A stretch of DNA of 21,580 nt, from positions 1 to 21,580 of the IMG/VR virus record IMGVR_UViG_3300023245_001286; one strand, written 5' to 3'. The notes under the pieces were generated by a model, which was not told where the DNA came from, did not search any database, and worked only from the letters and a program-made list of their open reading frames with translations. Within the stretch, counting starts at the first letter, position 1. Every line of letters begins with the position of its first letter. The translations under genes and the position numbers were made by a program. Origin of the DNA: a virus. Shown one piece after another: positions 17,184 through 18,655 of this stretch.

Positions 17184-17278
17184 CACATTAAAAACTACTA
17201 CTTGGGGTAATCGTTAACGCACTTACTACATAGTAGTTTTTAGAGCAAGTTTTACCCCAAGTATGACTTGCTTTTTTT
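17184..17278 (+). ncRNA. Small RNA with complementary hairpin loops, copy A
   Basis: About 95 nt. The 5' hairpin has an 11-bp perfect stem, AAAAACTACTA (17190-17200) with TAGTAGTTTTT (17231-17241), around a ~30-nt loop. The 3' hairpin, AGCAAGT (17244-17250) with ACTTGCT (17266-17272), ends in T7 and is an intrinsic terminator. The first loop starts CTTGGGGTAA (17201-17210), perfectly complementary to TTACCCCAAG (17252-17261) in the terminator loop; counting A17200 and T17262 it is 11 bp. The loops could kiss within or between molecules. No ORF of note. Same plan, unrelated sequence, as 18515-18655. Confidence 0.7.
17244..17278 (+). terminator. Terminator hairpin of RNA A
   Basis: AGCAAGT/ACTTGCT stem with a 15-nt loop and a T-tract at 17272-17278. 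The loop carries the anti-loop sequence described for RNA A. Confidence 0.8.
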
Positions 17279-17329
17279 GCACTAAAATTATCACTATAAG
17301 ATTGAATAGATAAATTCTTCCTCTTAAAA

Positions 17330-17560
17330 GCTACTTAGACTGAAATGCTTGGGATAGAAAAACTTTAGTAAGTAGTTCACGGTCGAACCACAATGAGAGC
17401 CGAACTCTATAGCTTTAGGGCATACTTACAAATGGGAACTTGTGCTAGATTTAGTTGTCTAGTCGTCTCTATCCGAGGAGCTATAACAAGGATAGATGTT
17501 AGCTGAATTAAATAAGCTAAATATAAAAACCTCATTCCAGAGTCTTTAAATTATTAAAGA
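17330..17560 (+). ncRNA. Candidate larger structured RNA or leader
   Basis: This gene-free stretch (17279-17674) is rich in inverted repeats. CTTGGGATAGA (17348-17358) pairs with TCTATCCGAGG (17468-17478), one mismatch, enclosing 131 nt with possible inner stems GTAAGTA/TACTTAC (17368-17374/17423-17429) and CTAGA/TCTAG (17446-17462). TAAGTA (17369-17374) could instead pair with TACTTA (17332-17337). AGCTATAACA pairs with TGTTAGCT (17479-17504), in competition with TTAGCT/AGCTAA (17499-17520). TCTTTAA-ATTA-TTAAAGA closes it (17543-17560) without a T-tract. The mutually exclusive pairings suggest a switch or a large RNA. No known class is recognised. 17561-17674 holds nothing I can name. Confidence 0.45.
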
Positions 17561-17674
17561 TTGTGATGTGCTGTCTTTGTATATGTATCTATTGTTTTAT
17601 AACTGATGAAGTATTATTAATTCTACTATGCTTGAATTAGACACCCGTAATTTATTTTCCTTTTCCTATAAACA

Positions 17675-17944
17675 ATGAAACAAATATTCTCAGGAATGAA
17701 GGTTAATAATAAGCTTTCTAAAGACTTAGTATTTAAAGATTGGTTATATTCTAAAAAGAAAGAAAAACATTATTCAAAAATAACTACTATTAATTATATG
17801 TTTATAGGATTTAAAAATGGATATGTTATAATATTTGAAAAAGATGGAGAAAAATTATTAATGAATCCAATTAGAGATTACTACCATACTATTAAAAACT
17901 GAGTAATTTCTAAAATAAAGAATCCTATCTGAATTCCATTTTAA
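17675..17944 (+). CDS. Unknown early protein, 89 aa
   Basis: Begins MKQIFSGMKVNNKLSKDLVF; basic and Lys-rich, with a central strand-like region (INYMFIGFKNGYVIIFEKDG) and a C-terminus including two TGA-Gly. Single compact domain, no membrane segment or catalytic motif seen. It is the first sizeable gene after the RNA-rich region, with a leader that lacks Shine-Dalgarno. Could be a host-takeover or regulatory protein; not recognised. Confidence 0.65.
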
Positions 17945-17958
17945 TAGCAGAAAAAGAA

Positions 17959-17989
17959 TACTTATATTAATAACTAAAGAGACTATGAA
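17959..17989 (+). repeat. 31-bp duplicated gene leader, copy 1
   Basis: Identical to 18128-18158 and ends in the first codons of the downstream gene (ACTAAAGAGACTATGAA). It includes ACTTATATTAAT, AT-rich and -10-like, and the purine run AAAGAG six nt before the ATG, so it could act as a portable promoter or ribosome-binding leader. Confidence 0.9.
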
Positions 17990-18113
17990 CAAAGAAAAAG
18001 CTATAAAGATACTAAAAGACCACCAAGCATGGAGGCGTGGTTGAGACTGACTTATGATAGATCCAAAACTACTGTGATTAGCTATAGATTGGGTAATTAA
18101 TGAAACAAAATAA
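17985..18113 (+). CDS. Small conserved-type phage protein, 42 aa
   Basis: MNKEKAIKILKDHQAWRRGG followed by DP-x2-LG-x-AIDWVI matches a small phage protein pattern I recall (an Ala-Ile-x2-Leu-x2-His-x2-Trp-Arg-Arg-Gly start, then a Met-x-Asp-Pro and a C-terminal amphipathic helix), of unknown function. Three TGA-Gly, including one in the WRRGGDG turn. Preceded by the duplicated 31-bp leader with AAAGAG as a possible Shine-Dalgarno. Confidence 0.75.
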
Positions 18114-18127
18114 TAAAAGTGTGGTCT

Positions 18128-18158
18128 TACTTATATTAATAACTAAAGAGACTATGAA
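18128..18158 (+). repeat. 31-bp duplicated gene leader, copy 2
   Basis: Second identical copy, 169 bp downstream of the first. A diverged third version precedes the gene at 18341 (ACTATATAACTAAGAG then GATG). Confidence 0.9.
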
Positions 18159-18318
18159 AGAAATAATTTACATAACCTACGACGGTAGAAACTTTAAAAT
18201 CCCCTACAGTGACTATAATAAATGAGTAATAGAAACCATATTATTTATTTGAGAAAAAGAAGGTTGGGAGGAAACGCAAGATGCAATGTTTGAATCATTT
18301 TATAAAGATGTAATTTAA
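18154..18318 (+). CDS. Small unknown protein, 54 aa
   Basis: Begins MKEIIYITYDGRNFKIPYSD and ends in an acidic helix (EEGWEETQ-like region and MFESFYKDVI). Two TGA-Gly. Expressed from the second copy of the 31-bp leader. No family recognised. Confidence 0.65.
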
Positions 18319-18340
18319 TTTACTATATAACTAAGAGAGG

Positions 18341-18451
18341 ATGAACTTACAAGAATTTAAAAGTAAACTAGATATAGCATTAAGTAAAAAAGATATAGAC
18401 CAAGAAAAATACGACCATTTAGTAGAGTGAATTGCTATTATTAATAATTAA
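18341..18451 (+). CDS. Small helical protein, 36 aa
   Basis: MNLQEFKSKLDIALSKKDID then a short helix ending in AIINN; one TGA-Gly. A clear purine-rich GAGAGG sits immediately before the ATG. Its stop codon lies inside the following terminator. Function unknown. Confidence 0.55.
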
Positions 18452-18475
18452 GCTGATTAAATTTAGCTTTTTTTA
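18448..18475 (+). terminator. Intrinsic terminator of the small early operon
   Basis: AAGCT (18450-18454) pairs with AGCTT (18465-18469), followed by a T-tract at 18468-18474. Short stem, but the T-tract and position after the last small gene support it. Confidence 0.7.
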
Positions 18476-18482
18476 TTATCTT

Positions 18483-18511
18483 TTGCAAATAAGTAGTAAA
18501 GATGATATAAT
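18483..18511 (+). promoter_or_regulatory. Promoter of the second kissing-loop RNA
   Basis: TTGCAA (18483-18488), ideal 17-nt spacer, perfect TATAAT (18506-18511). The expected start near 18517 falls close to the 5' end of the structured RNA. Confidence 0.65.
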
Positions 18512-18514
18512 GAG

Positions 18515-18655
18515 TTCGTATCTAGTTATATTTGATATAGCTTAATATATTCATTTAAGAAAAGTCAGACCTTTTTGAATGAGTATATTAAGTACAGCTA
18601 AGTACGAAATAAATTGCACCTCACTCGGTCTGACTTAAGAGTGAAGGTGCTTTTT
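18515..18655 (+). ncRNA. Small RNA with complementary hairpin loops, copy B
   Basis: About 140 nt. A long 5' hairpin: outer stem 18515-18527 with 18596-18608 (TTCGTA/TACGAA plus further pairs), inner 16-bp stem 18541-18556 with 18577-18592 (two G-U pairs), 20-nt apical loop. The 3' hairpin GCACC-T-CACTC (18616-18626) with GAGTG-AA-GGTGC (18639-18650) ends in T5 and is a terminator. AAGTCAGACC (18562-18571) in the first loop is perfectly complementary to GGTCTGACTT (18627-18636) in the terminator loop. No credible ORF inside. Architecture repeats that of RNA A with different sequence, arguing that loop-loop pairing is selected. Confidence 0.75.
18616..18655 (+). terminator. Terminator hairpin of RNA B
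   Basis: Ten base pairs with a small internal bulge, a 12-nt loop and TTTTTATTTT tail. Confidence 0.85.

Follow-up and report, generated by a model that had tools for sequence, protein, structure and literature searches.

Kissing-terminator leaders, as we call them, form a widespread and apparently undescribed class of phage leader RNAs located before DNA-replication genes in phages of widely differing hosts. Members of the class share one layout. A 5' element lies immediately behind a promoter and in most cases forms the loop of a first hairpin, in some a single strand; about 25-110 nt after it stands an intrinsic terminator, and the apical loop of this terminator is complementary to the element over 7-12 bp. 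A small ORF and/or a DnaD-like protein, and then a helicase, are encoded directly behind the terminator. Complementarity of at least 7 bp between the terminator loop and its own 5' element was found in two predicted RNAs of the window, RNA A (12 bp) and RNA B (10 bp), and in 15 further leaders. The window is the whole stretch of DNA analysed here, a virus record of 21,580 bases that represents a linear fragment. RNA B and, by its design, RNA A are probably kissing-terminator leaders, which would work as cis-acting attenuators controlled by loop kissing.

Only if TGA is taken to encode glycine (table 25), as it does in Gracilibacteria and Absconditabacteria, do the open frames of the window close. 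Its genes include TerL (Pfam Terminase_6N/6C), an SU10-like portal and a capsid protein, and the endolysin gene is followed by the region with RNA A and RNA B and then by the genes for the DnaD-like protein and the DnaB-like helicase (Table 1). The TGA glycines are unevenly spread, with 19 in TerL, 8 in the portal and none in the 399 codons of the major capsid gene (8957-10156). Several further features were recorded along the window. A perfect 64-bp tandem duplication (16595-16722) leads into a terminator hairpin (16709-16748), and the identity of its two copies suggests a recent event or an assembly effect. A very basic 41-codon ORF (MNRKRHSRTHKRTSYSQKYFF..., 16972-17097) with its own terminator (17122-17135) lies between the endolysin gene and RNA A. 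Two identical 31-nt repeats, TACTTATATTAATAACTAAAGAGACTATGAA, at 17959-17989 and 18128-18158, each end in the start of a small ORF and look like a repeated promoter/ribosome-binding unit, and the contig end (21222-21570) carries degenerate 15-bp repeats, forming a pentapeptide-like repeat, that encode a Cys/Arg/Phe-rich protein. The noncoding stretch 17279-17680, of which about 390 nt (17279-17670) lack a clear gene and have a G+C content locally above the flanks, was considered as a large structured RNA and rejected, its predicted fold being no better than those of shuffled sequences.

Table 1. Predicted RNA elements and genes of the window, together with sites of a conserved element in other phages
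Feature	Position	Strand	Basis
CHAP endolysin	16001-16600		
RNA A promoter-like boxes (TTGACA, 16 nt, TAATAT)	17151-17178	+	consensus match only
RNA A, predicted, ~95 nt	17184-17278	+	two hairpins, U-tract, fold z -5.3
RNA A hairpin 1, 5' arm (partner 17231-17242)	17189-17200	+	12 nt, 100% inverted repeat
RNA A 5' element UACUUGGGGUAA, complementary to terminator loop	17199-17210	+	p 2e-4
RNA A hairpin 1, 3' arm	17231-17242	+	inverted repeat with 17189-17200
RNA A terminator hairpin (arms 17244-17251 and 17265-17272, 13-nt loop)	17244-17272	+	fold prediction
RNA A terminator-loop element UUACCCCAAGUA	17252-17263	+	100% match to 5' element
RNA A U-tract	17272-17278	+	sequence
RNA B promoter-like boxes (TTTGCA, 18 nt, TG before TATAAT)	18482-18511	+	consensus match only
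RNA B, predicted, ~140 nt, replication-operon leader	18515-18655	+	fold z -6.3
RNA B hairpin 1, 5' arm (partner 18572-18592)	18541-18561	+	inverted repeat, 86%
RNA B hairpin-1 loop AAGTCAGACC, 10 nt	18562-18571	+	p 6e-4
RNA B hairpin 1, 3' arm	18572-18592	+	inverted repeat with 18541-18561
RNA B terminator hairpin (arms 18616-18626 and 18639-18650, 12-nt loop)	18616-18650	+	fold prediction
RNA B terminator-loop element GGTCTGACTT	18627-18636	+	complementary to hairpin-1 loop
RNA B U-tract	18651-18656	+	sequence
Small ORF, 34 codons, beginning 26 nt past RNA B terminator stem	18677-18781	+	
DnaD-like replication initiator/helicase loader (code 25)	18774-19481	+	PHROG 6251 (E 4e-16), PHROG 1701
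DnaB-like replicative helicase (code 25)	19485-20729	+	PF00772, PF03796
GGTAATCTTAAAACC-like element of Flavobacteriia phages	L118 ~14218-14252; L117 ~10340-10383; L121 ~812-860; L126 ~3010-3043		

RNA A has a first hairpin with a 30-nt loop, and its 5' element (17199-17210) pairs with the terminator loop (17252-17263) over 12 bp. Ten nucleotides of the element (17201-17210) are unpaired in hairpin 1 and 17199-17200 are shared with the tip of its stem. The kiss occupies 12 of the 13 nt of the terminator loop, and the two stems adjoin without a linker. In RNA B, AAGUCAGACC (18562-18571) pairs with GGUCUGACUU (18627-18636) over 10 bp, by which the entire 10-nt loop of hairpin 1 and 10 of the 12 nt of the terminator loop are engaged. 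RNA B stands directly before the replication genes (the 34-codon ORF, the DnaD-like gene and then the DnaB gene) and is better called an operon leader than a free-standing small RNA. RNA A does not occupy this position, the nearest 40-codon frame lying at 120 nt and a 75-codon ORF at about 400 nt; because no sizeable ORF follows closely, it may be a separate, true small RNA, or it may represent a second leader whose untranslated region is long.

Neither complementarity is readily produced by chance. None of 60 mononucleotide shuffles reached the observed value for either RNA, dinucleotide shuffles of the upstream transcript (n = 5000) gave p = 2e-4 for RNA A and 6e-4 for RNA B, and both RNAs fold far better than shuffled sequences. 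The original prediction had described two small RNAs, each with its own promoter, that share a loop-to-terminator-loop design hard to explain by chance. The complementarities were found where it had placed them, that of RNA A extending to 12 bp, and the shuffles bear out the judgement on chance. Promoter-like boxes do precede both RNAs, yet these are consensus matches only and such boxes are no commoner in the region than in shuffles; the designation as small RNA suits RNA B less well than that of operon leader and is retained for RNA A as a possibility.

Searches for relatives of the two RNAs by sequence gave no close homologue of either in the collections searched. Each loop sequence and each partner occurs only once on the window's + strand, scans of IMG/VR for exact copies of either loop pair gave none, and a DNA search for the window region in phages gave no match. 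Likewise, scans of viral contigs with the endolysin and the DnaD-like protein yielded no relatives, and scans of genome contigs yielded no Gracilibacteria prophage. In a survey of terminator-like hairpins undertaken for a base rate, 14 of 291 reached p <=0.02, among which four were replication leaders and the remaining ten were somewhat above chance. The hairpin rules of this survey missed the true leaders of phi10:1, lillamy, elemo and Nekkels_1, so absence from it says little.

Relatives of the capsid and portal proteins led to long contigs, and the terminators of these contigs were scanned for loop complementarity to upstream sequence. The first relatives of the major capsid protein stop short of the RNA region, and the extra 5.8 kb upstream in one of them (G005) consists of structural genes. 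The scan pointed to contigs G018 and G025, in which the feature lies at most about 2 kb upstream of the DnaB gene; the G018 DnaB is 42% identical to that of the window over the aligned part. Position before the replication genes was therefore used as a guide in further DnaB relatives, and four contigs (G014, L090, L089 and L095) were picked in this way. In all, the design was found in this position, with different sequences, in five further TGA=Gly contigs (G014, L090, L089, G025 and G018) and in the standard-code contig L095, with individual p values from 6e-4 to 0.049. The G014 leader is preceded by TTTGCA-17-TATAAT boxes similar to those of RNA B and comprises the hairpin TTAAATATTTGT-[GTTGTCTAGG]-ACAAGTATTTAA and the terminator GCCCCA-[TTAAATCTAGACATTTAC]-TGGGGT; TGTCTAG pairs with CTAGACA plus one G-U pair, which taken alone is weak (p 0.049, rank 2 of 17). 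The pairing elements of L090 are GTCGTGTT and AACACGAC, both within loops, and those of L089 are GGCGAGCAA and TTGCTCGCT, the predicted fold placing CGAGCAA in a hairpin loop. In G025 a single-stranded ACAATCCTTGC pairs with GCAAGGATTGT, and in G018 the terminator is a long hairpin, the apical loop of which, GTAGTGTG, pairs with CACACTAC, likewise single-stranded; a 15-bp match in G018 was rejected as a kiss, being the terminator stem itself.

In L095, CCGCTACA pairs with TGTAGCGG. The terminator loop of this contig is complementary to two copies of CCGCTACA (3785-3792 and 3879-3886), one in the leader and the other immediately ahead of the initiator's start codon (AACCGCTACAAATG), and a link to translation control is possible. 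A related arrangement was observed in the standard-code phage L093 (3700-3760), where a single-stranded CCTCTTGC behind a TTGCTT-17-TACAAT box pairs with GCAAGGGG. A strong hairpin that precedes the replication genes there holds this partner in its loop but lacks a U-tract. Comparable leaders without the design include those of L087 and G026; the complementary stretch of G026 lies upstream of the predicted start and was left out of the count.

The best tblastn match to the DnaD-like protein of the window belongs to the Tenacibaculum phage JQ, whose leader carries AGCATCCTAC in its first hairpin and GTAGGATGCT in its terminator; over the whole JQ genome this leader is the sole match among 47 terminator-like hairpins. 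Helicase relatives of JQ led to further isolated Bacteroidota phages, with GTACGAC and GTCGTAC (Cellulophaga phi10:1 and phi19:1), GTGGTGG and CCACCAC (Olleya Harreka_1), and TGAGAGC and GCTCTCA (Flavobacterium elemo). Nekkels_1 and the Flavobacterium phages lillamy, mumin and morran were reached by the same route. Individual p values for elemo, phi10:1, JQ, Harreka_1 and the Cellulophaga phage Nekkels_1 ranged from 3e-4 to 0.018. The terminator of Nekkels_1 (L127, 2549-2660) carries two apical hairpins, and two loop pairings occur there together, TTGGAA/TTCCAA and GTCTAAC/GTTAGAC. Polaribacter phages P12002S and P12024L served as further test genomes: the replication-gene leader of P12002S contains GGTCGTAG and CTACGACC, two fully paired 8-nt loops, with the first ORF 13 nt past the terminator stem, and the design was not found in P12024L. 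Nor was it found in Vibrio, Aeromonas, Exiguobacterium and Geobacillus phages with a related initiator or helicase. Immediately ahead of the replication operon's small ORF, several Flavobacteriia phages also share a conserved GGTAATCTTAAAACC-like element, possibly a translation signal (Table 1).

Covariation was analysed in the leaders of Flavobacterium phages lillamy, mumin/snusmum and morran, which are about 87-93% identical over matched DNA. Their 8-bp loop-loop helix is formed by GTGAGACG/CGTCTCAC in lillamy, GTGGAACG/CGTTCCAC in mumin and snusmum, and GTGAGAAG/CTTCTCAC in morran, with five of the eight pairs invariant, all three variable pairs altered on both sides and no unpaired cell. 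Over the whole structure, in which the hairpin stems also covary, six pairs are altered on both sides vs 1.7 in shuffles, a value reached by none of 500 shuffles of this alignment of few sequences and few events; sliding the partners by 1-3 columns left no both-sided changes. In a cross test of 17 leaders, which takes in the close relatives lillamy, mumin and morran, the terminator loop fitted its own leader best in 16 (0 of 20,000 permutations), the mean score being 21.3 for the own leader vs 11.9 for other leaders. The loop pairing is thus real and is maintained by compensatory change, as seen from paired substitutions in the Flavobacterium group and from leader specificity across the 17 leaders; the paired substitutions concern the Flavobacterium leaders, RNA A and RNA B having no close homologue in the collections. 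Preservation of the complementarity in homologous leaders of related phages, which the original prediction had named as its own check, is therefore seen in isolated phages.

A G+C-rich hairpin with a U-tract lies between promoter and gene in these leaders, as in an intrinsic-terminator attenuator. Since the first ORF begins only 12-49 nt past the terminator stem in 16 of the 17 leaders (RNA A being the exception), little room is left for a promoter. The replication operon of those 16 leaders probably depends on read-through of the terminator, or else on transcripts that start farther upstream, as judged by spacing only and with inferred promoters. When transcripts were cut before the 3' arm of the terminator, the best predicted fold paired the two elements fully or partly in nearly all leaders, the exception being L090, whose first hairpin is too stable to open without a pseudoknot; the kiss can thus form first, and the terminator must fold afterwards. 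We propose that, after RNA polymerase leaves the promoter, the terminator loop would emerge and find the 5' element already waiting. The two would pair ahead of synthesis of the terminator's 3' arm, and the kiss would alter how often the terminator folds in time and so set read-through into the replication genes. Release or favouring of the kiss might be brought about by a phage or host protein, or by other copies of the leader RNA as the phage multiplies.

As to the direction of the effect, we lean slightly towards a kiss that would delay the terminator (antitermination) rather than strengthen it. In RNA A and RNA B the near-complete use of the terminator loop should, on structural considerations, strain the stem. 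In the Flavobacterium RNAs the kiss lies on a separate apical stem, and the lower terminator stem is free and can form alongside it, so the effect on termination could go either way. Tuning of termination, one of several roles raised in the original prediction, is the branch we favour. The leader design as a whole would be a control element, most likely a switch on replication-gene expression. No sequence homology was found between the RNAs of the TGA=Gly phages and those of the Bacteroidota phages; because their likeness is one of architecture and position, the shared design may reflect either common descent or convergence.

Other readings of the same features were weighed. The terminated product of 95-140 nt could be an independent small RNA acting in trans, whose kiss gives compactness and stability and whose exposed parts regulate host or phage messages. 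Its own promoter-like boxes, strong folding and terminator with a U-tract would suit such an RNA, as would the lack of a sizeable ORF close behind RNA A and the complementarity of the L095 terminator loop to the initiator start-codon region. We nevertheless hold this to be unlikely, since in 16 of 17 leaders the ORF lies so close to the stem that not much space remains for another promoter, sequence outside the loops is not conserved from one lineage to another, and the loop sequences have no second site in most genomes examined. They occur once per genome stretch, except for one extra 7-mer in elemo, and no same-strand targets in trans were evident elsewhere in the genomes apart from the L095 start-codon copy. 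The absence of another same-strand target is also compatible with pairing between molecules, in which leaders dimerise or bind nascent leaders and leader concentration, set by phage copy number, feeds back on termination, much as antisense RNAs do in plasmid copy control. Both complementary loops are present in each RNA, the full pairing of 8-12-nt loops resembles plasmid kissing complexes, and in RNA A the missing linker would, on geometric grounds, make an intramolecular coaxial kiss awkward. Against this, intramolecular pairing should win at low concentration, and RNA B, G014, L090 and the Flavobacterium RNAs have linkers long enough for it (about 14-27 nt), which leaves the intermolecular reading a slender chance. 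The same small chance attaches to the leader being its own antisense, terminated copies pairing in trans with nascent leaders so that termination is set by phage copy number; if true, this would be a self-complementary RNA copy-number sensor for replication genes in phages of Patescibacteria and Bacteroidota.

A function at the level of DNA, with the inverted repeats serving as an origin or a protein-binding site and the RNA features incidental, would fit the neighbourhood of the DnaD-like and DnaB genes, and interrupted inverted repeats would show the same covariation. The repeats, however, lie inside the loops of two hairpins, the second with a U-tract, behind promoter-like boxes; the hairpin stems covary too, and the two halves stand 24 to 80 nt apart, depending on the leader, unlike those of a protein operator, so that this reading appears highly improbable. 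The original prediction had also drawn a comparison with the phi29 pRNA, a multimeric RNA of the packaging motor with a 4-bp kiss and without a terminator hairpin. The likeness is that of one small phage RNA with two complementary loops, and it finds no further support: no match to the Rfam pRNA covariance model was obtained, pairing extends over 7-12 bp vs the 4 bp of phi29, the RNAs lie before replication or early genes rather than in the packaging module, and the TerL is of the ordinary Terminase_6N/6C type with an SU10-like portal. The probability of a packaging-motor RNA is practically negligible, and attenuation in cis, controlled by loop kissing, is the reading we prefer.

No Rfam 15 family scored above its gathering threshold in the window or in the leaders of the other phages, the best sub-threshold matches in the window being unrelated plastid, rimP and miRNA models, and a search of the open-access literature (subscription papers lying outside it) gave no description of such a leader. 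The statement that no described family has this layout holds within these two sources. In attenuators of the pT181 type and in transcriptional riboswitches, ZTP among them, a promoter, a structured 5' RNA, an intrinsic terminator and a controlled operon are likewise combined, and refolding during transcription decides read-through. In such systems the competing structure as a rule shares sequence with a terminator arm, or there is a known antisense RNA or ligand; in the leaders here a complementary loop pairs with the apical loop of the terminator itself, and neither an antisense gene nor a ligand is evident. In ColE1 RNAI/RNAII, too, the loops of intact hairpins pair in full, over about 7-8 nt, comparable to the 8-nt loops of P12002S; these are two RNAs from opposite strands, whereas each leader here carries both loops in a single RNA, with an intrinsic terminator as its second hairpin. 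The P4 CI and P1 C4 RNAs are phage leader RNAs in which internal complementarity controls termination of early transcription, but the pairing there joins a processed RNA to leader sites in trans, in contrast to that of a 5' element with the terminator loop of the same leader. The HK022 put RNA likewise forms a pair of hairpins immediately after an early phage promoter and has an effect on termination, but it acts on RNA polymerase at distant terminators, without loop-loop pairing with a terminator.

If the preferred reading is true, control through the apical loop would be an added way to control an intrinsic terminator. Many phages would then possess a control element where their replication operon begins, among them uncultured phages that infect Gracilibacteria-type hosts, about whose gene regulation almost nothing is known. 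The finding also supplies a search rule for cases in which sequence searches fail, since the loop sequences differ and the complementarity stays. The leader is carried by isolated Flavobacterium and Cellulophaga phages with cultured hosts, and the mechanism is therefore directly testable.
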